This document shows positions 31,925 to 58,893 of a stretch of 64,000 bases of DNA, piece by piece (position 1 is the first letter of the stretch; every line of letters starts with the position of its first letter). The notes under the pieces were generated by a model, which searched no databases, was not told where the DNA came from, and saw only the letters and a program-made list of their open reading frames with translations. The DNA is from Dyella jiangningensis (GTDB lineage Bacteria; Pseudomonadota; Gammaproteobacteria; Xanthomonadales; Rhodanobacteraceae): contig NZ_NFZS01000001.1 of NCBI RefSeq assembly GCF_003264855.1, positions 744,001 through 808,000 of the forward strand, read 5' to 3'. Position numbers and translations under genes: made by a program.

Positions 31925-33091
31925 ATGGCGAAAAAGACCACCACCCCGTTCGGCCTGGGTACTCGGGCCATCCACGCTGGGCAGCATGCGGACCCGGCCA
32001 CCGGCGCCATCATGACGCCCATTTACGCGACGTCGACCTACGTGCAAAGCAGCCCGGGCGTTCACAAGGGCTACGAGTACTCACGCACCCAAAATCCCAC
32101 CCGAATGGCCTATGAACGCTGCGTGGCTGACCTGGAAGGAGGGCGGGCCGGTTATGCATTCGCTTCTGGCCTTGCGGCGGCGAGCACCGTACTCGACCTA
32201 CTCGAGAGCGGTAGTCATGTCATTGCGATGGACGATCTGTACGGTGGCACCTACCGCCTCTTCGAGCGAGTCCGTCGCCATTCCGCCGGCTTGGATTTCA
32301 GTTTCCTAGACCTCAATGATCTGGGTGCGCTAAAGGCGGCTCTTCGTCCGAATACACGCATGATCTGGGCGGAGACGCCGACCAATCCGATGCTCAAGTT
32401 GGTTGACCTTGCCAAACTTGGCGCATTCGCGAAAAAGCATGGGCTGATCTTGGTCGTTGACAACACGTTCTGCTCTCCCATGCTGCAGCGCCCACTTGAG
32501 TTCGGCGCGCATCTGGTTCTTCATTCAGCGACGAAATACCTCAATGGCCATTCCGACATGGTCGGCGGCATTGTGGTGGTGGGCGATGACCCTGTCCTCG
32601 AGGAACGCATGGGCTTCCTGCAGAACTCGGTGGGTGCGGTGGCGAGTCCGTTCGATTCGTTCCTGGCCATGCGCGGACTGAAGACGCTGCACTTGCGCAT
32701 GCAAGCTCACTGCGAGCACGCGCTGGAGCTCGCGCGATGGCTGGAAAAGCACCCGGCCGTCAATCGTGTGATTTACCCTGGCCTGAAGAGCCACCCACAG
32801 CATGCACTGGCCCGCCGGCAAATGGACGGTTTTGGAGGCATCATCAGCATTGAGGTGTATGGTGGTCTGCGCAAGGCGCGTCGTATGCTTGAGCGCTGCC
32901 ATCTGTTCGCACTGGCCGAATCGCTGGGTGGCGTCGAAAGCCTCATTGAGCACCCCGGCGTCATGACTCACGCCTCGGTTCCTGCAGCCAATCGAAAGCG
33001 GTTGGGCATCAGCGATGGTCTCATTCGCCTGTCCGTCGGTGTGGAGGATGTTGAAGATCTCAGGGCGGAACTCTCCGTTGCTCTGTCCTGA
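31925..33091 (+). CDS. metB: Cystathionine gamma-synthase/lyase family enzyme (MetB)
   Basis: A 388-residue PLP enzyme of the Cys/Met metabolism family. TRAIHAGQHADPATGAIMTP starts the protein, YSRTQNPTR and FASGLAAAS follow. LVLHSATKYLNGHSDMVGG holds the PLP lysine, and SLGGVESLIEHPGVMTHAS is the family end motif. Sequence alone does not separate synthase from lyase activity. The nearby cystathionine beta-synthase would support a lyase in reverse transsulfuration. In Xanthomonas this gene marks one boundary of the O-antigen locus; the same seems true here, with wzm starting 49 bp after its stop. Confidence 0.9.
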   Translation: MAKKTTTPFGLGTRAIHAGQHADPATGAIMTPIYATSTYVQSSPGVHKGYEYSRTQNPTRMAYERCVADLEGGRAGYAFASGLAAASTVLDLLESGSHVIAMDDLYGGTYRLFERVRRHSAGLDFSFLDLNDLGALKAALRPNTRMIWAETPTNPMLKLVDLAKLGAFAKKHGLILVVDNTFCSPMLQRPLEFGAHLVLHSATKYLNGHSDMVGGIVVVGDDPVLEERMGFLQNSVGAVASPFDSFLAMRGLKTLHLRMQAHCEHALELARWLEKHPAVNRVIYPGLKSHPQHALARRQMDGFGGIISIEVYGGLRKARRMLERCHLFALAESLGGVESLIEHPGVMTHASVPAANRKRLGISDGLIRLSVGVEDVEDLRAELSVALS

Positions 33092-33140: not shown

Positions 33141-33971
33141 ATGAGTTCATTGATTGAAGCGGCGGGCAAGCGACTGCGAGGCCCATTTTCCGCACTGATT
33201 GAACATCGATCATTAACCATCGAGCTGGCCAAGCGCGACATTCTTGGGCGTTATCGCGGCGCGAGTTTCGGCTTGCTGTGGTCGCTCATAAGTCCGTTTT
33301 TGATGCTGGGGGTTTATACCTTTGGTTTCGGCTTCATCATGAAGAGTCGCTGGCCTCAGACTAACGGCACAGACACGCACTTCTCGGTGATCTTGTTCGT
33401 TGCGCTCATCGTCCATGGTTTTTTTTCCGAGTGCCTCAATCGTTCGCCTTCGCTCATCACGTCGCAGCCTAACTTCGTGAAACGGGTGATCTTCCCCTTG
33501 GAAATCTTGCCCTGGTCCATGTTGCTCTCGGCATTGTTTCACTCGCTCATGAATGTGCTTGCATTCATACTCCTAAGGCTTGCCATGGAGGGCACGATCG
33601 CTTGGACAGTGGTCTATCTGCCGCTGGTGATGCTGCCGTTGATCCTGCTGACGCTAGGTATATCCTGGCTACTGGCCGCGCTTGGTGTTTATTTGCGAGA
33701 TATCGGGCAGATAACCCCAGTGCTCGCGACGGCTCTCTTGTTTCTGTCATCGGCGATGTATCCTTTGTCGGCCGTGCCCGAGCGATATCGCTTCTATTTC
33801 GAGCTCAATCCCCTGACGTTTATCATCGATCAGGCGCGTGAGGTTGGGCTCTGGGGGCATTCCCCGAACTGGCTGGGGTTGTTCCTCTACGCCCTTGGGG
33901 GACTTTTCGTGTCATACGTTGGCTACGCCTGGTTCAAAGCAACGCGTAAGGGTTTTGGCGATGTCCTCTGA
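33141..33971 (+). CDS. wzm: ABC transporter permease for O-antigen export (Wzm)
   Basis: A 276-residue ABC-2 type membrane protein with six predicted helices and the short cytoplasmic N-terminus SLTIELAKRDILGRYRGASFGLLWSLISP typical of polysaccharide export permeases (RfbA/KpsM/TagG). It would form a channel dimer with Wzt and move undecaprenyl-linked polymer across the inner membrane. The last 11 bp overlap the start of wzt. GC content falls here compared with the housekeeping genes, as expected for a variable locus. Confidence 0.9.
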   Translation: MSSLIEAAGKRLRGPFSALIEHRSLTIELAKRDILGRYRGASFGLLWSLISPFLMLGVYTFGFGFIMKSRWPQTNGTDTHFSVILFVALIVHGFFSECLNRSPSLITSQPNFVKRVIFPLEILPWSMLLSALFHSLMNVLAFILLRLAMEGTIAWTVVYLPLVMLPLILLTLGISWLLAALGVYLRDIGQITPVLATALLFLSSAMYPLSAVPERYRFYFELNPLTFIIDQAREVGLWGHSPNWLGLFLYALGGLFVSYVGYAWFKATRKGFGDVL

Positions 33972-35328
33972 ATGCGCCATTCGCGTCAACAACCTGAGCA
34001 AGTCGTTCCCGATCTATGACAAGCCGTATCATCGCCTACTTCAAATGGTGGCGCCTGGCCCGAAACAGCGCTGGTTCCGGGAGTTTCAGGCCCTTAAGGG
34101 CGTCGACCTTTCCGTCGCTCGTGGCGAAACGCTTGGCATCGTCGGGCGAAATGGCTCGGGCAAATCGACGCTGTTGCAGTTGATCTGCGGCACTCTCACT
34201 CCCACAAGCGGAACGGTGGAGGTGCAAGGGCGCATCGCTGCACTATTGGAACTCGGGTCGGGCTTCAACCCCGACTTTACCGGTCGCGAGAATGTGTACC
34301 TCAACGGTGCAGTGCTGGGACTAACTCAAGAAGAAATCCGCGAACGCTTTGACGAAATCGCTGAATTTGCGGAGATTGGCGAGTTTATCGAGCAGCCTGT
34401 AAAGAGCTATTCGAGCGGCATGTATGTGCGCTTGGCATTTGCGGTTGCTATCAACGTCGATCCGGAAATCCTGATTGTCGACGAGGCACTTTCAGTTGGC
34501 GATGAAGCTTTTCAGCGCAAATGCTTCGCGCGCATTAACAAGATCAGGGATGCTGGGGCCACTGTGCTTTTTGTATCTCACTCAGCTGGCGCGGTAACCG
34601 AGCTGTGTGATCGAGCACTGCTGCTGGATCACGGTGAGCTCTTGCTTCAAGGCGCGCCAAAGTTCGTGGTGTCGCGATATCACAAGATGCTATATGCGCC
34701 AGCGGAACGCGTTGCCGCGATCCGCGAGTCGATTCGCAACCACGAAGACGAAAGCCCATACTCCCTGAGCGCGGCGCATTCGTCTGACGGCGACGCGAGG
34801 ATCGAAGCTGTCCCCGGTGGTGCGACGGTTGCGGACGACGATAGTGAGGCTTACCTAGACGAGGGACTCGTGCCCAAAAGCACGCTTTCTTATGAGGACC
34901 TGGGCGCAGTCATCGAGGATGCTCACATCGAGACCCTCGGTGGGCGTCGAGTCAATGTCCTGAAGTCTGGTAACCGATATACATACGTCTACAACGTGCG
35001 CTTTCATGTGGCGGCCGAGGCCGTGCGTTTCGGCATGTTGATAAAGAGTGTGACCGGACTCGAGTTGGGAGGCGGGCAGTCCGCCACACTCGAGGACACC
35101 TTGCCGTTGGTTGAAGGGGGGAGTGTCCTGACCGTGCGTTTCCAGTTCCGTTGCTTGATGGCTCCTGGTGCGTACTTCCTCAATGCCGGAGTGCTCGGCA
35201 GGGTGGGGGATGGCGAGGTCTACCTCAACCGGCAGATCGACGTGGCGATGTTCCGGGTGATGCCTGATCCCCAGCGTCTGGCCACTGCAATGGTGGACTT
35301 CGAGATTAGCCCTTCGGTTGAATTCTGA
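33961..35328 (+). CDS. wzt: ABC transporter ATPase with C-terminal carbohydrate-binding-type domain (Wzt)
   Basis: A 455-residue protein. The nucleotide-binding domain has Walker A GRNGSGKST (62-70), signature SYSSGM (149-154) and Walker B ILIVDEAL (170-177). About 200 extra residues follow (from about 255), including YVYNVRFHVAAEAVRFGMLIKS and MAPGAYFLNAGVLG, typical of the Wzt C-terminal beta-sandwich that recognises the modified non-reducing end of O-antigen in O8/O9a-type systems. That extension implies that export here is linked to a terminal modification. ATG 33961 lies inside the end of wzm. A long spacer (about 245-320) separates the domains. Confidence 0.92.
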   Translation: MSSECAIRVNNLSKSFPIYDKPYHRLLQMVAPGPKQRWFREFQALKGVDLSVARGETLGIVGRNGSGKSTLLQLICGTLTPTSGTVEVQGRIAALLELGSGFNPDFTGRENVYLNGAVLGLTQEEIRERFDEIAEFAEIGEFIEQPVKSYSSGMYVRLAFAVAINVDPEILIVDEALSVGDEAFQRKCFARINKIRDAGATVLFVSHSAGAVTELCDRALLLDHGELLLQGAPKFVVSRYHKMLYAPAERVAAIRESIRNHEDESPYSLSAAHSSDGDARIEAVPGGATVADDDSEAYLDEGLVPKSTLSYEDLGAVIEDAHIETLGGRRVNVLKSGNRYTYVYNVRFHVAAEAVRFGMLIKSVTGLELGGGQSATLEDTLPLVEGGSVLTVRFQFRCLMAPGAYFLNAGVLGRVGDGEVYLNRQIDVAMFRVMPDPQRLATAMVDFEISPSVEF

Positions 35329-35656
35329 CAGGCTTGTCCCGCAGCGTTGGCAGCAACGGGAGGAGTAGACTCCCCGCCCTTTACCTGTACGCGTTCAGCT
35401 TATTCGTTCAATTATTTCAGTAAAGCCGCACACGTAAGCCTGGGCTAGACTTGTTTTTAGGCACGCTCGCTAGCGGCGGATGGCCGTCATAACCGCATTT
35501 GGTGCGCGGACATGGCATGGCTAGACGCCGGCTTTCCCTGAGATGAATTTGCAGTGCCCGGCACGGTATGGAGCCGCGTGGGCGCCTAAACGAGCGATTT
35601 TCATCGCTCAAGTTCGACCGGTAACGCCTCGGTACGCTTTTGAAGCAAGGTATGGT
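35329..35656. other. Gene-free stretch between wzt and the large glycosyltransferase gene
   Basis: About 330 bases of lower GC. A weak hairpin GGGAG...CTCCC lies at 35358-35374. An in-frame upstream extension of the next gene to 35543 exists but has no ribosome site or recognisable sequence. No clear promoter. Confidence 0.4.
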
Positions 35657-38089
35657 ATGCAATTTTCAACACTTGGCAGAATGCTAGAGCGGCTGGTGCG
35701 CAGCGTTAAAGGCAAACTGCGGGCAAATGCGTCTGGGGCTGATGTAGAGGGAATGGTTGTGAGAACAGATGAGAGCCGCGCAGGGGGCGGTGAGGGGCTG
35801 GCCTGCATATCGCTAGCGGATTCCGGACTATTCGACCGGGGCTGGTATCTGTCGATGTATGAGGATGTTGCGCGTCATGGGGTTGATCCACTGGATCACT
35901 ATCTCAACAACGGTTGGCGAGAGGGTCGGTCGCCAAGCGCGTTCTTCGACGCCCGATGGTACCTTTATCACTACAAGGACGTGATGGAGGCATCGGTCGA
36001 ACCGCTCAATCACTATCTGTCCAATGGTTTTGCAGAAGGGAGAATGCCTAACCCATTCTTCGACGATGAGTGGTACATAGGTACGATCGAGCGTGAGTTT
36101 GACGAAAAGGATCTGACCTCCTACGCGATTTACCTTAAGCGTGGATTGGCATCTGGTCACTCCCCTTTGCCCGAGCTGCAACCACTTTATTGGGCAAGAA
36201 AAGACGTGCCCGCCGATGCGTACGGCCAGTACAAGCGACTGGTTGCTGCGATGCGGCCGTGGTGGGAACGATTTGGCCGAGCAAAAGTGGCCATACTCGC
36301 GGCCTTGTACAGTCCCTATGAAGACAGTTCGTTGCTGTCCAACGCGGGGAGTGATGCGATAGAGAAGTTCATAGGTTTCCTTGAGCTCGCATGGACCGAG
36401 AATGCACCCCCGGGCCCACTTTTCCAGGAAAGCTATTACGAGCGCGTCCTGTGGAATCGGGGAATCGTGCGGCAGCCGGGCGAAACATTGCTGCAGCACT
36501 ACCTTCGCGCCGGGTTTGATCTGCGCCTCGTACCCACCGCCAATTTCGACGATGCTGCTTACTATCAGCAGAATCCCGATATAGACCCATCGTTCTGTTG
36601 GGGGTTCGAACACTTCATCAAGAATGGCGTGTTCGAAGGCCGTCGTTCGACTCGCGCTCCTCGCCCGGTAATTGCGCAACTCATGATGCAGGGAAATGAT
36701 CGTGAAGCGCGTATCAACAACTGGAAGTACTTCCTTTCATCCTGCGGCGAGTCTTTGGAATTGGATGGCGTCTATCAGCGCGTATCCCATTACGCAAAAG
36801 TAGTCGACGACATCTTCCGCTCCTCCGCATTCGGGGAGACCATGAGGCGGGCCGTTCGCATCGAGCCCGCTATCGGTGACCCGGAGGATATTAGCGATGT
36901 ACTTGTCCCGCCCTTTCATGATGCACGTGACATGGCGCGGCGCGCTCTGCGCGAACGGTTGCTGCAGGCTCACTACGATACCGTCGTTTGCGTGCCGTGG
37001 ATTCGAACGGGAGGTGCGGACCTCGTTGCCTGCCAGATCAGCCAAGCCATCCGCGACGCCCGCCCGGACGAGTCCGTACTCATCGTGCGTACGGATCAGC
37101 CTCATTTCGATCGCCCGGAATGGGTGCCACACGGTGTGAGCGTCATTGATGCGTCGGACATCTTCAAATGTCTGCCGCCCATTGACGCGCAACTGTTGCT
37201 ATACGGCATGCTGATGGGGCTCGCGCCGACGCGGGTGGTCAATGTCAACAGTCGCCTGTGTTGGGACACGCTGGCTCGATTTGGTTCGCGGCTATCAAAT
37301 AGCATTCATTTGTATTCCTACCTGTTTTGTTGGGACCACACACCGCGCGGCTTTCGTGCAGGTTATCCCAGCGAATTTTTCCCCGAGACCGCGCACAATC
37401 TCAGCGCGATCTTCACGGACACGGTGTATTTGAAGAACGAGTTGGACGGCATTTACCGGCCTCCTGCCTCCATCCGTGATCGGATCATTCCACTCTTTTC
37501 TCCCGCGAAGACTGACGTCATCGGGCCAGCCATGGTGGAAGTAAGCGTGGGGCGGGCTAAACATCGACGTCGCTGGAAAGTTTTGTGGGCCGGAAGGCTT
37601 GATCGTCAAAAGCGGTTCGACCTTGTCCAAGAGATCGCGAAGGCCATGCCAGACGTCGATTTCCTTTGTTGGGGTTCGGCGCTTCTGGATGCGCCGCCGA
37701 ATCATGAAAAAACCCCTGTCAACCTGAAGCTTCATGAGGGGTTCTCATCATACGATGAGCTGCCGTTGGATGATGCGGATTTATGGCTGTTCACCTCCGA
37801 ATGGGAGGGCATGCCAACCCTTCTTGTCGAATTGGCTCACAGAGGCGTAAGCATCGTCGCAAGCGCAGTTGGCGGGGTGCCCGAACTCATTGATGAGGAA
37901 ACGGGCTGGCCGGTGAACCAAGTGCGCAGTATTGATGCCTATGTGTCGGCCATTCGAGAATCGCTGGCTTCGCCCGCACAGCGCGTGGCGCGGGCCGTGA
38001 AGCTTCGGGAGCGTGCCCGTGCACGCCATAGCATGGCGTCGTATGTAAAGCAGATCTCTGAAGTTTTGAACAACGAGGGTGCGGTTTGA
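35657..38089 (+). CDS. Large glycosyltransferase: N-terminal WYL-repeat region plus GT4 domain
   Basis: An 810-residue cytoplasmic protein. The first 350 residues carry repeats of about 40 residues with the pattern FDxxWYLxxYxDV...PLxHYLxxGxxEGRxPxxFFD (two clear copies, two degenerate copies later, including FDDAAYYQQNPDI). The same repeat occurs in other large bacterial polysaccharide glycosyltransferases. The C-terminal half is a GT-B fold: KVLWAGRLDRQKRFDL and EWEGMPTLLVELAHRGVSIVASAVGGVPEL are GT4 donor-site motifs. The start at ATG 35657 follows gcaagg; it is uncertain by a few codons. It overlaps the next gene by one base, so both belong to one transcript. Sugar specificity is unknown. 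Confidence 0.8.
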   Translation: MQFSTLGRMLERLVRSVKGKLRANASGADVEGMVVRTDESRAGGGEGLACISLADSGLFDRGWYLSMYEDVARHGVDPLDHYLNNGWREGRSPSAFFDARWYLYHYKDVMEASVEPLNHYLSNGFAEGRMPNPFFDDEWYIGTIEREFDEKDLTSYAIYLKRGLASGHSPLPELQPLYWARKDVPADAYGQYKRLVAAMRPWWERFGRAKVAILAALYSPYEDSSLLSNAGSDAIEKFIGFLELAWTENAPPGPLFQESYYERVLWNRGIVRQPGETLLQHYLRAGFDLRLVPTANFDDAAYYQQNPDIDPSFCWGFEHFIKNGVFEGRRSTRAPRPVIAQLMMQGNDREARINNWKYFLSSCGESLELDGVYQRVSHYAKVVDDIFRSSAFGETMRRAVRIEPAIGDPEDISDVLVPPFHDARDMARRALRERLLQAHYDTVVCVPWIRTGGADLVACQISQAIRDARPDESVLIVRTDQPHFDRPEWVPHGVSVIDASDIFKCLPPIDAQLLLYGMLMGLAPTRVVNVNSRLCWDTLARFGSRLSNSIHLYSYLFCWDHTPRGFRAGYPSEFFPETAHNLSAIFTDTVYLKNELDGIYRPPASIRDRIIPLFSPAKTDVIGPAMVEVSVGRAKHRRRWKVLWAGRLDRQKRFDLVQEIAKAMPDVDFLCWGSALLDAPPNHEKTPVNLKLHEGFSSYDELPLDDADLWLFTSEWEGMPTLLVELAHRGVSIVASAVGGVPELIDEETGWPVNQVRSIDAYVSAIRESLASPAQRVARAVKLRERARARHSMASYVKQISEVLNNEGAV

Positions 38090-38796
38090 TGCAGATTTCA
38101 GCCATTTTGACGGGCCACTCGGAAGGTCTGCTTAGCGGCCCGTCCATAGCGAGTTTTCGCGAAGCGATTGACTTCGCCCGTGGCCAGGGCATTTCTGTTG
38201 AGCCCATTGTCATCCTAGATCGTCCCAGTGCGTTGACTCGAGAGATGTTCGTGGACGCCAAGTCTTGGGGCGGAACCTTATTCACTACTGAATTTGGTGA
38301 TCCTGGTTTGGCGCGGAATCATGGCGTGGTGCAAGCAACGGGAGACTTTGTCACTTTCCTCGACGCAGATGACTTATGGAGCTTCAACTGGCTTGCGGCA
38401 GCTCACGCGCTTTGCGTGCGTGAAAACCGGGACGTCATTGCGCATTCTCAACTCAACATGATCTTTGGGCGTGAGCGCGCATACTGGCTGCATGTGGATT
38501 CCGAGCACCCTGACTTTGATCCTGGCTACTTGCAAATAGGTAATTACTGGGACGCACTTTCTTTTGCGCCACGGCACATCTTCCAGGATATTCCGTTTCA
38601 TAAGAATGAGCTCTCGACCGGATATGGGCATGAGGATTGGCACTGGAACTGTTTGACCTTGTCCAAGGGCTACCCGCATAAGCCAGTGCAGGATACGGTT
38701 CACATGAAGCGTCGGCGCCTTGGTTCCCAAAGCGCCAGAGCGAACAGCAGTGACGTAGTGCCGTGGCCAACAGACATGGTGCTGTTCACGGTCTGA
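38089..38796 (+). CDS. GT2-like (GT-A fold) glycosyltransferase
   Basis: A 235-residue protein. ISAILTGHSEG, the donor-site region FGDPGLARNHGVVQATGDFVTFLDADDLW with the DADD metal-binding motif, and YGHEDWHWNC with an acid-rich acceptor segment indicate a small GT2-type transferase. It lacks the long C-terminus of most family members. The ATG shares a base with the stop of the preceding glycosyltransferase gene (TGATG), which implies coupled translation and a joint role in polymer assembly. Confidence 0.75.
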   Translation: MQISAILTGHSEGLLSGPSIASFREAIDFARGQGISVEPIVILDRPSALTREMFVDAKSWGGTLFTTEFGDPGLARNHGVVQATGDFVTFLDADDLWSFNWLAAAHALCVRENRDVIAHSQLNMIFGRERAYWLHVDSEHPDFDPGYLQIGNYWDALSFAPRHIFQDIPFHKNELSTGYGHEDWHWNCLTLSKGYPHKPVQDTVHMKRRRLGSQSARANSSDVVPWPTDMVLFTV

Positions 38797-38883: not shown

Positions 38884-40434
38884 ATGCAAGAGATGCAGAA
38901 CAAGAAATTGATTGTTGTCCTGGGTATGCACCGTAGCGGTACGAGTGCAGTCACTCGTTCGCTCCAGACCTTGGGGGTGGATCTGGGGGATGCACTCGTT
39001 CCTGCCGTGGCCGGTGACAACGACAAGGGATTCTGGGAAGACGCAGATACGCTGTCGATCAACCAAGACATCATGTCGGCACTGGATGTCAGCTGGTGCC
39101 CGTTGAGCCCGTATCGATGGTCCAGGATCGATGCGGACAAGATGCAGGAGTTCCGATTGCAGGCCATGGAGCTCCTGATCGGTAAACTCAAGGACGTGCC
39201 CGCGTTTGGCCTCAAGGATCCGCGTCTGACTAGGCTCCTGCCGTTCTGGCAGCCGATTTTTCGGGAGCTTGGCGTTGATGTGCACTATGTGCTGGTGGTG
39301 CGCAATCCACTCAGCGTTGCGGCATCGCTGAAGCGTCGAAATGGTTTCGCCGAGTTTCGCAGCCATTTGCTTTGGCTAAGGCACGTCGTGCCCAGTTTCT
39401 TGGATACCTGCGGGTTGCCCCGGGTCGTAGTCAGCTATGAACGGATGATGGCTGATCCGGAGGTGCAGCTGCGCCGGATCGCTGCTGGCCTGGATATGCC
39501 CCTGAACGAAGAGTCGAGCGCGTTTCTCGATTACACCCGAAACTTTCTCAGCCCGGAATTGCAGCATGAGCACCACACCGTCGACGAGCTCGATGTTGCC
39601 GGCGACGACGTGCCTGTCCAACTCCGGCATGTCTATGCGGCGCTGCGAGGCATGGCCAGTGACGCGATTTCTGACGGCGACTCGACGATCTACGAACTCT
39701 TCCTTGAGGTCGACAGATATCTCTCCGGCATGGAGAGCAGCCTTGCTTACATCGATCGATTGGAGGAGCGCAACGAGGAGTTGCTGCACACTATTCCGAC
39801 AGAAGCGGTGGCCCGGATCGCTGAGCTGGAGTCGGCCTACCAGAAGCTCGCGGAAGGACAAGCCTGGCTCGAATCCCAGCGCGATGAATGGGAAAAGCTG
39901 GCCGAGAGCCGAGAGCAACATGTGGCTGAGCTTACTGAGTCGATAAAGGTAAGCGAGCAGCTTCGGTACACGTCTTCGGCGGAATTGACCAGTCGCGTGG
40001 CCGAACTCGAGTCGGCCTATCAAGCGCTCTCGGAAGGACAGGCATGGCTCGAGTCCCAGCGCGACGCATGGGAGAAGTTGGCCGCAATCCGGGAGCAGCG
40101 TATCGCCGAACTTTCCGCATTGGTCAAAGAGTTCGATCGGGCGCAGCACCCGGCCCTGCCGGAGGTGCGCGGTCGCCTGACGGAACTGGAGGTGGCCTAT
40201 GACGCGCTGCTCAATGGAAACACGTGGCTGGAGTCTCAGCGCGATGCGTGGGAGAAACTGGCAGCAAGCCGGGACCAGCGCATAGCCGAGCTATCTGTGG
40301 CACTGAAGAAGTACGAAGAGGGCAACGCCTGGCTGGAATCACAACGGCAGGCCTGGGAATTGCAGGCCAAGGCGTTTGCGGCACGCTTGTTGGAGTTCGA
40401 AGGTCACTCGTCCGAGTCGACGCAGGGCGTTTGA
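38884..40434 (+). CDS. Sulfotransferase fused to tandem coiled-coil repeats
   Basis: About 516 residues. The N-terminal 240 residues are a PAPS-dependent sulfotransferase: P-loop LGMHRSGTSAVTRSL (5'-phosphosulfate binding) and VVRNPLSVAASLKRR (3'-phosphate binding), plus FGLKDPRLTRLLPFW. From about residue 300 come three repeats of exactly 60 residues, each with ELESAYxxLxEGxAWLESQR then DAWEKLAxxRExRIAEL, and a shorter fourth. They should make a long coiled coil. An enzyme domain plus coiled-coil ruler, encoded beside wzm/wzt, recalls WbdD of E. coli O9a, though WbdD is a kinase/methyltransferase. The start is uncertain; ATG 38884 or 38893 is most likely. Confidence 0.8.
   Translation: MQEMQNKKLIVVLGMHRSGTSAVTRSLQTLGVDLGDALVPAVAGDNDKGFWEDADTLSINQDIMSALDVSWCPLSPYRWSRIDADKMQEFRLQAMELLIGKLKDVPAFGLKDPRLTRLLPFWQPIFRELGVDVHYVLVVRNPLSVAASLKRRNGFAEFRSHLLWLRHVVPSFLDTCGLPRVVVSYERMMADPEVQLRRIAAGLDMPLNEESSAFLDYTRNFLSPELQHEHHTVDELDVAGDDVPVQLRHVYAALRGMASDAISDGDSTIYELFLEVDRYLSGMESSLAYIDRLEERNEELLHTIPTEAVARIAELESAYQKLAEGQAWLESQRDEWEKLAESREQHVAELTESIKVSEQLRYTSSAELTSRVAELESAYQALSEGQAWLESQRDAWEKLAAIREQRIAELSALVKEFDRAQHPALPEVRGRLTELEVAYDALLNGNTWLESQRDAWEKLAASRDQRIAELSVALKKYEEGNAWLESQRQAWELQAKAFAARLLEFEGHSSESTQGV
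39781..40320 (+). repeat. Three tandem 180-bp repeats inside the sulfotransferase gene
   Basis: The segments starting at 39781, 39961 and 40141 align with each other at exactly 180-bp spacing, for example gagctggagtcggcctac, gaactcgagtcggcctat and gaactggaggtggcctat at the same offset. They encode the 60-residue coiled-coil repeats. Third-position differences show that they are old enough to have diverged. Confidence 0.85.
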
Positions 40435-45280: not shown

Positions 45281-47593
45281 TTACCCGAGTGAATAACGAG
45301 TCTTTCGAATGAGGCGGTCGTAATCCCGGGCATTGCGAAGTGCTTCCAGGAAGGTATGTCCGAAGCGACGATCGGGCTCCAGGTAGGCGCCCTCCGCCCA
45401 TTCGTTCCACGCATTGATGAAGACGAGCCGCTCATCACCTGTGTATTGCTGCTTAGTGCGGGCAATCGTCGTTTCCAGCCACGCTTGAAATGCCCCAGGC
45501 GTAGCGTTGTCAAAGGCGTAACTGTTGTTTTGCCTTCTGGGAGTATTGTCCCAGCCCGGCATCGCACCTAGAAAGCGTTTGTAGGGGGGCAGTTCACGCG
45601 TTGCATAGCGCACGGCGATGTCGCGATAGTCAGCCACTGCGCCCTGAAAGTCAGCATTCAACAGCGGCGTGGAGACGGGTCGTGGCTCGGCCATGCCCTG
45701 CGGGGGAAACTCCACGGCCGCATCGCAACCAAGCTCGCTTGGATGGGTGCCTGCTGAGACCAGCTCAAACGACTCCACCTGGGCGATGTAGATTTCGCCA
45801 ATGCCTTCTTCACGGCAGGTTTTGCGCCAGATGGCGGCGGTGCGAGCGAAATCGGGGAACAGCGTTATGCGATAGACCAGTATGAGGGGCTTGCCGTTGA
45901 TCCGTATGTAATTGGGACTGCGGAAGTAGCGAATGAGGTCGCGAATGACAGCTTCATCGTCTTCATCGGAATGACTCTGAGCCATGAGCACATCATGCTC
46001 TTGGCCATCCCAACGACGCGTCCAGTTTTCATTGGCCCAACACAGGCAGAATGGGAAATCCGGGCGACCGGTTTTCAGCATGTTTTCCAGAGGCCGCTCT
46101 AGTAGCCGATGCCCGGCAAACCAGTAGTAGTAATAGCAGAAGCCACCCAGGCCGTACCGTCGGGCAAGGGCGGCCTGCATTTCCATCGCTTCGGCAACGC
46201 GCAGGTCGTAGAAGCCAAGGTCCGCCGGCAGGCGAGGCTGATAATGACCGACGTAATTTGGCTGTGCCTTGGTGACATTCGTCCATTCAGTGAAACCGGG
46301 GCCCCACCACAGGTCGTTCTCTGGAAACGGATGGAATTGCGGGAGATAGAAGGCGATGGTGCGGACATCGTCCATACGATCAAGTTCGGCTCTCCAGCGG
46401 GAGGTGAACTTGGCCAAATTGGTTGAGATGCAGCGAAGTTTGTAGTCGCTCTCCAAACCGTCTGACGTACGGCTCAAGTGATGGAGAACGGTTGCATTTG
46501 GGCAGTAGACGATGCGCTTGCCTTCGGCGCGTAACCGCATGGAAAGGTCAGAGTCCTCACAGTACGCGGGAGCAAAGGTCTCGTCGAAACCGCCCAGTCG
46601 TTCGAAATCCTCCCTACGCACGAGCAGGCAAGCACCACTGCAATAGTCCACGTCCCGCTCGTACGAGTATCGAGGCAAGTCCGGAAGGTCGTTGAGACCG
46701 ACCATTTCGGAAGTGCCGTCGGCGTGCAAAGTCGTGCCAGCCTCCTGCAACCAGCCATTTGGATAGGCAATGCGTGGACCAACAGCCCCGATATCTGCGG
46801 AGCCATCGATGCACGCGACAAGCGCTGACAACCAGCCCTTTGTTACCTGCACGTCGTTGTTCAGAAGGACGAGCAGGCGCCCCTTGGCAAATTTCGATGC
46901 GGCGTTGCAGTTACGAAGAAAGCCCAGATTTTCGGGTTGGGAGACAATGCGAACGTGAGGAATCGCGCCCAGTACCCGAGCACTCTCATCCGTAGAAGCA
47001 TCATCGGCAATCAGGACTTCAAACGACGGCCCCGCATCTCTCGCGGTTTCTGCAATGGAGGCCAGGCATTCCAGCGTCGTCGTGAGATGGTTGTACACGG
47101 GCACCAAGATGGTGACATCCGGGCACTCGGAGGGAACTGGCAGGCGGATGCCGTTGGCTGAGGCATCCGGGGATTGCTGGCTGAAGTCAAGGACAGCAAC
47201 TTTCTTGGGGCTCTTCGACAGGCGTTGCTCCGTGAAGGTAGCGTCGATGCGCTCGCGGACGTCCCGGTAATCGAGCCACTCCTGAGTGCCGTCAGCACGC
47301 CACAGGATATTGTGCGCGTGCGATGCGGTGGAGTAGATACCCTTTTCCGCAGACGTTGTCGTTGGGCATGGCGCATGTGTGCGCTCATAAGCCGCCCAGC
47401 GCTGGTAGGCGCCTGTGCGCTCGAACACCTTTCCGGTGTATGTGAAGATCACGCGCTTGACCGCCAGCTTCTTTGCCGGGGCCAGCGGCGTCCAACGATA
47501 GATCCTGTCGACGATGTTTACGGTGCGAAGACGCATCCCCCGTGTTAACCGGCTGAGAAAATCGCTGGCATTGGCTGGTGAACGCGTGGTCAT
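45281..47593 (-). CDS. Fusion of GT2 glycosyltransferase and WbsX/GH99-like domain
   Basis: A 770-residue protein. Residues about 155-400 are a GT2 domain: VTILVPVYNHLTTTLECLAS, IADDASTDES, LLVLLNNDVQVTKGWL and YCEDSDLSMRLRAEGK. Residues from about 435 form a Glyco_tran_WbsX (GH99-like) domain: RTIAFYLPQFHPFPENDLWWGPGFTEWTNV, FCLCWANENWTRRWDG and VFINAWNEWAEGAYLEPD. This two-domain layout is known from O-antigen and capsule clusters. ATG 47593 follows aggag at 7-bp spacing; a longer reading lacks a ribosome site. GT4 and epimerase genes follow. Confidence 0.87.
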   Translation of the reverse strand: MTTRSPANASDFLSRLTRGMRLRTVNIVDRIYRWTPLAPAKKLAVKRVIFTYTGKVFERTGAYQRWAAYERTHAPCPTTTSAEKGIYSTASHAHNILWRADGTQEWLDYRDVRERIDATFTEQRLSKSPKKVAVLDFSQQSPDASANGIRLPVPSECPDVTILVPVYNHLTTTLECLASIAETARDAGPSFEVLIADDASTDESARVLGAIPHVRIVSQPENLGFLRNCNAASKFAKGRLLVLLNNDVQVTKGWLSALVACIDGSADIGAVGPRIAYPNGWLQEAGTTLHADGTSEMVGLNDLPDLPRYSYERDVDYCSGACLLVRREDFERLGGFDETFAPAYCEDSDLSMRLRAEGKRIVYCPNATVLHHLSRTSDGLESDYKLRCISTNLAKFTSRWRAELDRMDDVRTIAFYLPQFHPFPENDLWWGPGFTEWTNVTKAQPNYVGHYQPRLPADLGFYDLRVAEAMEMQAALARRYGLGGFCYYYYWFAGHRLLERPLENMLKTGRPDFPFCLCWANENWTRRWDGQEHDVLMAQSHSDEDDEAVIRDLIRYFRSPNYIRINGKPLILVYRITLFPDFARTAAIWRKTCREEGIGEIYIAQVESFELVSAGTHPSELGCDAAVEFPPQGMAEPRPVSTPLLNADFQGAVADYRDIAVRYATRELPPYKRFLGAMPGWDNTPRRQNNSYAFDNATPGAFQAWLETTIARTKQQYTGDERLVFINAWNEWAEGAYLEPDRRFGHTFLEALRNARDYDRLIRKTRYSLG

Positions 47594-47746
47594 GATCAGG
47601 TCTCCTAGCTCCCCATGATCCCATGGATCATGGCGGAGCCAAATAGGCTGAAGCCCTGTTTTGGCTGAATAAAACCCGCTCGGGCCTTGGAAATCGAGTA
47701 TGACGGCTGCCTGAGGGGCGCCGGGGATGGGCATCGAACAGGGAGA

Positions 47747-57074: not shown

Positions 57075-58016
57075 TCAGAGCGCTTGTTCGAGTTCCGGAA
57101 TGATCTTGAACAGATCACCGACCAGGCCGATGTCGGCAATCTCGAAAATCGGTGCCTCGCCGTCCTTGTTGATGGCCACGATGGTGCCGGCGTCCTTGAT
57201 GCCGGTGAGGTGCTGGATGGCGCCGGAGATGCCAATCGCAATGTACAGCTCGGGGGCGATGATCTTGCCGGTCTGGCCCACCTGCAGGTCGCTCGGCACG
57301 TAACCGGCGTCGACAGCGGCACGCGAAGCGCCCACGGCCGCACCGATCTTGTCGGCGAACTTGAAGATGATCTCGAAGTTTTCCTTCGAGCCCACGCCGC
57401 GACCACCGGAGACGACCTTGCACGCGCTCTGCAGGTCCGGGCGATCGCTCTTGCCGGACTGCAACTCGACGAAACGAGTGTGTGAGGGCAGGGCAACGTC
57501 CACCGACAGGGCTTCGACCGGGGCGTTGTTGGCGCCCGTCGCCGCGGCGGCCCAGGAGGCCGTACGGATGGTGGCGACCACGGTGGTGTTGGCGTCGGCT
57601 TCGACCGTGATGATCGCGTTGCCGGCGTAGATCGGGCGCTTGAACGTGTGGGCGCCTTCCACGCTCATCACGTCGCTGACCTGGGCTACGCCGAGCAGGG
57701 CGGCGACGCGCGGCAGCACGTCCTTGCCGAACGTGGTCGACGGGGCGAACGCGTGGCTGTAACCCGCGGCGGCCTTGGCGATCTGCGGGGCCAGCACGGC
57801 AGCCAGCGGATGCACGTTCTCGGCGCGAGCGATGGTCAGCACGCGGCTCACGCCTTCGATCTTGGCGGCTTCTGCGGCGACGGCGTCGACGTTGTCAGCC
57901 AGCACCAGTACGTCGATGGCTTCGGGCTTGATCGCCGCGGCTGCGCTCACGGCGCGTGCGGTGGAGGAATTCAGCTTGCCGTCCAGGTGTTCGGCGATGA
58001 CGAGAATCTTGCTCAT
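57075..58016 (-). CDS. etfA: Electron transfer flavoprotein alpha subunit
   Basis: A 313-residue FAD-binding subunit. The N-terminal domain begins [23 protein letters not shown]; the C-terminal FAD domain has [53 protein letters not shown] and [22 protein letters not shown]. It passes electrons from acyl-CoA dehydrogenases to ETF-quinone oxidoreductase. etfB is 21 bp upstream. In Xanthomonas etfA marks one border of the O-antigen locus. Confidence 0.96.
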
Positions 58017-58037
58017 GTCATGTCTCCTTGAGGCTGC

Positions 58038-58784
58038 TTAGAGCAGACCCTTCTGCTTCAACGCCGCGACCAGCTCGGCCGCATCCTTCACCATCACGCC
58101 CTTGCTGCGCTTGGCAGGTGCGGCGTAGTGCGTGGTCTTGAGATGGTCATTGGCTTCCACGCCCAGCGACGCGAACTCGATGGTGTCGATCGGCTTGGAC
58201 TTGGCCTTCATGATGTCCGGCAGCTTGATGAAGCGCGGTTCGTTGAGGCGCAGGTCGGTGGTGATCACGGCCGGCAGTTCGGCTTCGATTACTTCGAGAC
58301 CCGCGTCGACTTCACGGGTCACCATGGCCTTACCGTCGGCGATCTCGACCTTGCTGGCGAACGTCGCCTGCGGACGGTCCCACAGCGCGGCCAGCATCTG
58401 GCCGGTCTGGTTGGCGTCGTCATCGATGGCCTGCTTGCCGAGGATGACCAGGCCCGGCTGTTCTTTTTCGATCAGCTTCTGGAAGATGCGGGCAGCAGTG
58501 AGCGGCTGCACGGCGTCGGTGGTCACCACGTGGATGGCGCGGTTGGCGCCCATGGCGAGGCCGTTGCGCAAATGCGCGGTAAGGTCCGCCGGGCCGATGC
58601 CGACCACCACGACCTCTTCGGCCACGCCCATTTCGCGCAGGCGCAGGGCTTCTTCCAGGGCGATGTCGTCGAACGGGTTGGCGGAAAGCTTCACGCCATC
58701 AGTCACGACGCCGGTGCCATCGGGTTTCACCTGGATGCGGACGTTGTAGTCCACGACGCGCTTGTAGCCGACCAGAATCTTCAT
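58038..58784 (-). CDS. etfB: Electron transfer flavoprotein beta subunit
   Basis: A 248-residue protein with MKILVGYKRVVDYNVRIQVK at the start and VVGIGPADLTAHLRNGLAMGANRAIHV in the nucleotide-binding domain; it binds AMP and pairs with EtfA. ATG 58784 is preceded by agagga at 7 bp. A longer frame to 58838 lacks support. Confidence 0.95.
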   Translation of the reverse strand: MKILVGYKRVVDYNVRIQVKPDGTGVVTDGVKLSANPFDDIALEEALRLREMGVAEEVVVVGIGPADLTAHLRNGLAMGANRAIHVVTTDAVQPLTAARIFQKLIEKEQPGLVILGKQAIDDDANQTGQMLAALWDRPQATFASKVEIADGKAMVTREVDAGLEVIEAELPAVITTDLRLNEPRFIKLPDIMKAKSKPIDTIEFASLGVEANDHLKTTHYAAPAKRSKGVMVKDAAELVAALKQKGLL

Positions 58785-58893
58785 TGCGGTTCCTCTGTCG
58801 GGCGCCTGATGGGCGCCTTGGGTTGTGCGAATGGCCATTCTAGCCGATGGACCATCCGCACACGAATGGCGGTTGAGCCTCGCTGACCCGGGG

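Follow-up and report, generated by a model that had tools for sequence, protein, structure and literature searches.

The window, i.e. the whole 64,000-nucleotide stretch of Dyella jiangningensis DNA that we analysed, contains an LPS locus in which metB, wzm, wzt, a GT4 gene, a GT2 gene and a sulfotransferase gene follow one another on the same (+) strand. metB (31925..33091) forms the left flank, next to wzm (33141..33971; PF01061, E 2.3e-23), encoding an ABC-2 membrane protein, and wzt (33955..35328, start approximate; PF00005 and PF14524), encoding an ABC ATPase with a C-terminal domain of the carbohydrate-binding type. The same operon-like run continues with the gene for a large GT4 glycosyltransferase (35543..38089; PF00534, E 2.8e-9) with N-terminal WYLxxYxDV repeats, and with that for a GT2 glycosyltransferase (38086..38796; PF00535, E 5.3e-10) lying directly upstream of the sulfotransferase gene (38884..40434), which is the third gene after wzt, not the first. 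The GT4 repeats are of the form FDxxWYLxxYxDV...HYLxxGxxEGR. Further O-antigen genes extend up to the right flank at 57075..58838 (− strand), which we take to be etfA-etfB (homologues 94-97% identical in L035); a GT2-WbsX protein (45281..47734, − strand; PF14307, E 2.7e-136) is a candidate part of the polymerase. metB and etfA also flank the lps locus of Xanthomonas oryzae, and the locus of the window is this metB-etfA LPS site known from Xanthomonas (PMC524487).

The initial annotation placed the sulfotransferase gene 3.6 kb after a Wzt with a carbohydrate-binding-type C-terminal domain, and this holds: wzt ends 3.56 kb upstream, and its product carries a Wzt_C domain (34888..35298, + strand; PF14524, E 3.8e-26), the proposed reader of a sulfated chain end, whose similarity tracks the sulfotransferase (see below). 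Against solved structures, the C-domain alone gave a weak match (2r5o, E 0.026). Of 61 genomes, 20, own genome included, match the sulfotransferase with an E-value of at most 1e-6. In nine of the 20 related loci that we fetched, the metB homologue lies beside wzm and the order is metB-wzm-wzt followed directly by the sulfotransferase gene; four further ones have a more distant wzm/wzt pair within the same 20 kb.

The ORF was confirmed from the ATG at 38884 to the stop at 40434 (+ strand), and encodes 516 aa. AlphaFold2 (mean pLDDT 87) predicts with high confidence a sulfotransferase fold for the N-terminal part (aa 1-262; 38884..39669, + strand), followed by ~200 residues of helix. The N-terminus matches Pfam Sulfotransfer_3 with E 1.5e-5 and 25.8 bits, slightly below the 27-bit gathering cut-off, which the relative L030 exceeds with 33.2 bits; no NCBIfam family scores above its cut-off for the protein, the top match being NoeE with 18 bits versus 500. 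PAPS sulfotransferases are characterised by a phosphosulfate loop (GxxRSGTS-like) and a 3'-phosphate-binding R-x7-S pair. The window protein has the loop as GMHRSGTS (aa 14-21), then KDPR (111-114) and the R140...S148 pair; loop and pair are invariant in an alignment of 10 rows, and MHRSGTS, R140 and S148 do not vary in a second alignment of 45 rows either. The R...S stretch aligns with tyrosylprotein sulfotransferases and the predicted fold with PAP-bound enzymes, heparan sulfate enzymes being among the fold matches. The predicted fold and motifs bear out the PAPS-type sulfotransferase domain that had been proposed: by fold and motifs, the domain appears to belong to the PAPS-dependent sulfotransferase superfamily, and would be catalytic. 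With Pfam, neither a methyltransferase nor a kinase was found in the window protein, while both were found in the WbdD relative L149 described below.

Lack of a PAPS pathway had been named as one of the points that would speak against the proposed sulfate cap; the genome has two PAPS-making gene sets. It carries two APS kinase genes, one in what we presume to be cysD-cysNC, ~4.5 kb beyond the window end (L171:6512-9303), the other in a sulfate-assimilation cluster, within an ATP-sulfurylase/APS-kinase fusion that we likewise take to be Sat-APS-kinase (L172:8902-11154). An APS-kinase match is present in 60 of the 61 genomes, and two or three such matches, some of them weak, in all 20 same-genus genomes, with or without the sulfotransferase; one genome (G007) has an APS-kinase match ~32 kb from wzt and no sulfotransferase match. 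A PAPS supply dedicated to the locus by the nearby cysD-cysNC was rejected, since APS-kinase matches are a trait of the genus. The donor pathway exists, without a specific link to the sulfotransferase gene.

The C-terminal part of the protein is a predicted coiled coil (aa 306-506; 39799..40401, + strand). Structure prediction of the coil, proposed as a check in the initial annotation, gave long helices at residues 306-419 and 426-506 (AlphaFold2, single chain), interrupted near aa 420-425. Hydrophobic residues recur with a period of 3.52-3.53, whose power is reached by 0.5% of 1000 shuffles (wider residue set) or by 0/1000 (LIVMF); arithmetically, this period is close to 60/17, as expected from seven heptads plus one hendecad. 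Self-identity is maximal at an offset of 60 residues (75/187 positions), which defines unit 1 (39796..39975), unit 2 (39976..40155) and unit 3 (40156..40335), each of 60 aa and on the + strand, and a partial fourth unit (40330..40401, + strand). The WLESQR motif occurs at residues 328, 388, 448 and 483; the fourth core (WLESQRQAWE at aa 483) lies 35 residues, i.e. five heptads, past the third, not 60.

The repeats had been described as three exact 60-residue copies plus a partial fourth. The period and the partial copy stand, but exactness had to be dropped: units 1 and 2 are identical at 34/60 positions, 1 and 3 at 29/60, and 2 and 3 at 33/60 (48-57% pairwise), they share 102-119 of 180 bases, and Tandem Repeats Finder found no DNA repeat in the whole window. 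Near-identity between units is limited to the core W-L-E-S-Q-R-D-x-W-E-K-L-A. The same codon is used at only part of the identical residues (17/34, 13/29 and 17/33 for the unit pairs); from this codon and base identity the duplication looks old, with the core conserved at the protein level. Used as a query, the coil sequence matched in the window's own genome only (1/233 family genomes and 1/369 class genomes). A ruler read in number of repeats is not supported in the form initially stated: the repeats are inexact, the 60-residue unit is in no other searched genome, and other coils differ in repeat length. The plausible variable is coil length, not repeat number.

We scanned 106 sulfotransferase proteins, window included, and observed internal repeats at residues 250-620 in 35. 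Of these 35 repeat-bearing coils, 28 have a period divisible by 7, as do 12/12 of those with at least 70% identity; the window's period, 60 residues, is not divisible by 7. Note that coils favour multiple-of-7 periods anyway; high identity between repeats points to putative duplications that keep the register. As a control, 36 non-sulfotransferase proteins encoded directly after wzt also have coil repeats, none at 70% identity, and we therefore rejected tandem repeats as a speciality of the sulfotransferases. Tandem repeats of 71-98% identity, with periods of 14, 21, 35, 42 and 56, were seen in the coils of L058, L189, L190, L204, L215, L237 and L238, which are candidates for length variation between strains. 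Coil lengths of relatives come from a crude composition rule. The hydrophobic moment of the last 40 residues, a crude measure for which coil windows themselves reach 0.50, is at most 0.35 in the window protein, 0.52-0.72 in four of five relatives, and 0.32 in L215.

We then considered the gene position directly after wzt, hereafter the slot. In the family, 184 of 233 genomes have a Wzt match at E 1e-60, and 100 of 233 a sulfotransferase match at E 1e-12. The slot sample comprises 87 distinct Wzt loci (86 genomes, 19 genera), a larger set overlapping the 20 loci above; as these were picked from the top of the listing and then downward with skips, the sample is non-random and favours window-like Wzt. 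G022, where a sulfotransferase lies next to wzt in L034, and the contig fragment G074 are outside this set; L077 was dropped as a duplicate of L170, and L166 was dropped from the cap-type test, having no next ORF. In L071, where the script picked a spurious frame, the sulfotransferase was assigned manually, and L148 offers less than 2 kb of downstream sequence.

The sulfotransferase is the gene directly after wzt in 42 of the 87 loci, from 14 of the 19 genera. It lies 3-4 kb beyond wzt in four more, window among them; in a loose count, L052, L076, L114 and L170 were assigned by this downstream sulfotransferase (L076 by match positions), which in L114 and L170 is diverged and short (323 and 361 aa). 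The other occupants were clustered by single linkage at E below 1e-10, with Pfam names taken from one or two members each. A WbdD-like cluster occupies the slot in three loci (L143, L148 and L149) and a GT99 cluster in four (L152, L157, L161 and L167); the one member tested of each gave, respectively, a match of the L149 protein to PDB 4ax8, WbdD (E 1.2e-45), and of the L157 protein to PDB 5fa0 (E 3e-95), which we take to be WbbB. Three methyltransferase clusters (eight, six and five loci), DUF4915 (seven loci) and singles make up the other occupants. As WbdD and WbbB have been proven to act as terminators (PMC3482155; PMC11231755), positive controls exist within the slot itself, and both a WbdD relative (L149) and a GT99 cluster member (L167) are found in the window's own genus. 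By a crude rule, 15 scanned non-sulfotransferase slot proteins have a coil-like stretch of 51-217 residues.

Some slot occupants are worth recording in their own right. DUF4915 follows wzt in L126, L128, L129, L134, L137, L140 and L163; the scanned members contain a coil-like stretch, and in L140 glycosyltransferases stand behind DUF4915, which is possibly another cap enzyme. In L155, of the same genus, the gene after wzt encodes a different sulfotransferase-like protein of 255 aa with an HIPKTAGTS motif. In L132, wzt is followed by a 223-aa protein (L132:2868-3536) that has no Pfam match at E 1e-5 and looks SGNH-hydrolase-like by eye, and then by an ORF of 1524 aa.

The type of the Wzt C-domain varies with the occupant of the slot. 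Where the C-domain scores at least 140 bits to that of the window, a sulfotransferase adjoins wzt or lies within 4 kb in 43/43 loci (window included); the six loci between 100 and 140 bits are evenly split between a divergent sulfotransferase (three) and DUF4915 (three); below 100 bits, the sulfotransferase is found in 0/38. Identity of the ATPase half overlaps between the extreme sets (64-78% at 140 bits or more versus 49-66% below 100 bits). The nearest neighbour in another genus has the correct cap type in 72/75 cases by C-domain versus 65/75 by ATPase half, or, with the four loci re-assigned by their downstream sulfotransferase, in 79/79 versus 70/79. After regression of the C-domain on the ATPase half, the observed residual was reached in 0/2000 permutations. 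At an ATPase similarity of 0.60-0.65, same-cap pairs have the closer C-domain (median 0.27 versus 0.08), while the two lowest ATPase-similarity bins, with 10 same-cap pairs, display no clear C-domain difference (0.09 versus 0.07 and 0.05 versus 0.07). L129 seems a chimera-like case: its ATPase half is near both a sulfotransferase locus (0.79 to L125) and its own cap type (0.77 to L126), whereas its C-domain groups with its own cap type (0.54 versus 0.31). The DUF4915 cap type splits into two groups of Wzt C-domains. Conserved residues of the sulfotransferase-type C-domains (68 rows) appeared mostly structural by eye and picked out no sulfate site. Overall, the type of the Wzt C-domain is a better predictor of the cap-enzyme type than the ATPase half.

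To see how far the family extends, one genome from each of 84,980 species was scanned, yielding at least 590 candidate stretches, at least 567 of them relatives; the best 80 loci were analysed. Among these best 80, a Wzt ATPase part (>40% identity) ends at most 1 kb upstream in 22, with a C-domain at 39-54% identity to the window's in 19 of them; the distant Wzt-linked loci include Pseudomonas, Vibrio, Azoarcus, Massilia, Thiobacillus, Aeromonas and Desulfobulbaceae. In 14 of the best 80, Wzt is found at another position within 10 kb, and no Wzt was seen around the sulfotransferase in 44, five of these with little upstream DNA, so the sulfotransferase family is wider than its Wzt-linked set. 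Fusions are frequent: the same ORF contains a GT2 module in 35 of 115 sulfotransferase ORFs (behind the sulfotransferase in 34), a WbsX domain, related to the 45281-47734 protein of the window, in 13 (all behind), and the repeat module of the window's GT4 in nine (eight behind). In these fusions, sulfotransferase, coil and glycosyltransferase are arranged as in known terminators.

One relative belongs to a locus with genetic data. L242:4047-7415, from Aeromonas salmonicida ATCC 33658, is an ORF with the same number of residues (1122) as stated for WbbB (wbsalmo ORF20); its N-terminus is a sulfotransferase domain with 40% identity to our query (E 1e-43), which Pfam did not flag, followed by a coil (crude rule) and two glycosyltransferases, with Wzt upstream. 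It thus shares with the window protein the N-terminal sulfotransferase-family domain, the coil and the upstream Wzt, but is fused to glycosyltransferases, and the ORF compared comes from ATCC 33658 whereas the published strain is A450. A separate Sulfotransfer_1 gene is located between this WbbB counterpart and wzt. In A450, deletion of wbbB, wzt, rmlB or gtf-2 abolishes the O-antigen (PMC4483657). In the available text of that study, the authors assign WbbB residues 130-290 to capsule biosynthesis, discuss as sulfotransferase only the separate ORF19, and report no sulfate in the O-antigen; terminal residues can escape detection by NMR (PMC11127046).

Chains of E. coli O9a are capped by WbdD, whose coil of ~200 A determines their length; once capped, they are cleared for export by way of the Wzt C-domain (PMC5082667; PMC3482155). 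The window protein resembles WbdD of E. coli O9a and K. pneumoniae O3 in having an N-terminal, here putative, cap enzyme on a long coiled coil, encoded beside Wzm and a Wzt with a C-module. However, the cap enzyme of WbdD is a methyltransferase plus kinase and that of the window protein a sulfotransferase domain, and WbdD has a C-terminal membrane-associated region whereas the window protein, by the crude moment measure above, shows no marked amphipathic helix at its C-terminus. Having neither methyltransferase nor kinase, the protein falls outside the WbdD family, and we would class it among the coiled-coil terminators, as a variant with a sulfotransferase. WbbB of K. pneumoniae O12 (GT99 Kdo-transferase, coil and polymerase modules) has the enzyme-coil-glycosyltransferase layout of the fused sulfotransferase relatives, but differs in cap enzyme family, and the glycosyltransferases of the window are separate proteins. 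ORF6 of K. pneumoniae O7 and ORF7 of O4 likewise represent new terminator chemistries in coiled-coil proteins, with methyltransferase-kinase and Kdo GT137 caps, respectively (PMC11231755); no word beginning with 'sulf' occurs in the main text of that paper. Azoarcus sp. Aa7 (L215) has a sulfotransferase-coil protein next to a Wzt whose C-domain is 47% identical, with a similar, WLxSQRDxWE-type core in the coil; this protein has six 35-residue units, one of them degenerate, where the window protein has three 60-residue units and a part.

From this comparison, we regard it as probable that the protein is a terminator of an ABC-transporter-exported O-antigen on the WbdD principle, with a sulfate cap; catalysis, the terminal sulfate, its reading by Wzt and the length set by the coil would all be parts of this reading. 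The protein likely works like a WbdD-type terminator. In such a scheme, the undecaprenyl-linked chain would grow by the action of glycosyltransferases located where the coil meets the membrane. With a rise of 1.5 A per residue, a coil of ~200 residues would hold the sulfotransferase roughly 300 A away. Once the free chain end reaches the sulfotransferase, sulfate from PAPS would be transferred onto the terminal sugar and elongation would stop; the Wzt C-domain would then recognise the sulfated end, and export would start. As no marked amphipathic C-terminal helix is apparent and the gene is third after wzt, recruitment may use the neighbouring GT4 or GT2. Of the original proposal, the WbdD-like terminator with a sulfotransferase as cap enzyme and the Wzt C-domain as reader gains strong comparative support from the shared slot, the covariation and the fusions; its repeat-number ruler does not.

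Other explanations have to be weighed against a terminator. Sulfotransferases commonly decorate polysaccharides along the chain, and heparan sulfate enzymes are among the fold matches of the domain; the protein might accordingly sulfate internal sugars of the repeat unit, with a coil that only scaffolds the assembly complex and a chain length set otherwise. We consider this unlikely, given that relatives of known terminators (WbdD and GT99) occupy the same slot with the same layout, and that Wzt C-domain and enzyme type go together, a pattern more to be expected of a cap than of a decoration. A sulfotransferase fold that does not sulfate, but binds glycans or transfers another group in a protein that is mainly a scaffold or ruler, would fit the Pfam score slightly below the curated cut-off; the relative L030 is above this cut-off, however, and the invariance of MHRSGTS, R140 and S148 over 45 rows, the alignment of the R...S stretch with tyrosylprotein sulfotransferases and that of the fold with PAP-bound enzymes make such a protein very improbable.

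Block inheritance, in which Wzm, Wzt and the sulfotransferase gene merely travel together while the enzyme modifies another glycan, could also generate the observed association. The ATPase half of Wzt covaries with cap type as well (65/75), and the Xanthomonas lps locus has been described to vary in a way that suggests horizontal transfer (PMC524487). Block transfer explains part of the covariation between Wzt and cap; as its sole cause, it is the least probable of these alternatives and has very little credence with us. Covariation is stronger for the C-domain than for the ATPase half (72/75; residual test 0/2000), in L129 the C-domain goes with its own cap type while the ATPase half is near both, and fusions tie the sulfotransferase domain to glycosyltransferases.

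Among the titles and abstracts retrieved from open-access papers, none described a sulfotransferase as an O-antigen chain terminator, though an earlier mention is possible. Among the nearest matches, the available text of PMC4390846, PMC13171606 and PMC3526765 has no bearing on a sulfotransferase terminator, and only that of PMC4483657 does. In our best reading, what is new is the cap chemistry, and what is known is the principle of a coiled-coil terminator.

A broader generalisation can be offered tentatively, as a possibility that we hold with less assurance than the terminator itself: sulfate may commonly serve as the cap that ends ABC-transporter O-antigen chains, in Pseudomonadota and beyond, with a slot after wzt open to a range of interchangeable cap enzymes (sulfotransferase, WbdD, GT99, several methyltransferases and DUF4915), a Wzt C-domain that would constitute a readable cap code, and coil rulers retuned by register-keeping tandem duplications. 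The slot is a source of further, as yet unread cap enzymes, and the ruler model can be tested on coils of naturally differing length. If true, a charged, PAPS-dependent cap would be added to the chain ends named in the cited papers (methyl, methyl-phosphate and Kdo), the unassigned sulfotransferase domains in O-antigen loci, e.g. that of A. salmonicida, would be explained, and the chemistry of the chain end would become predictable from sequence.
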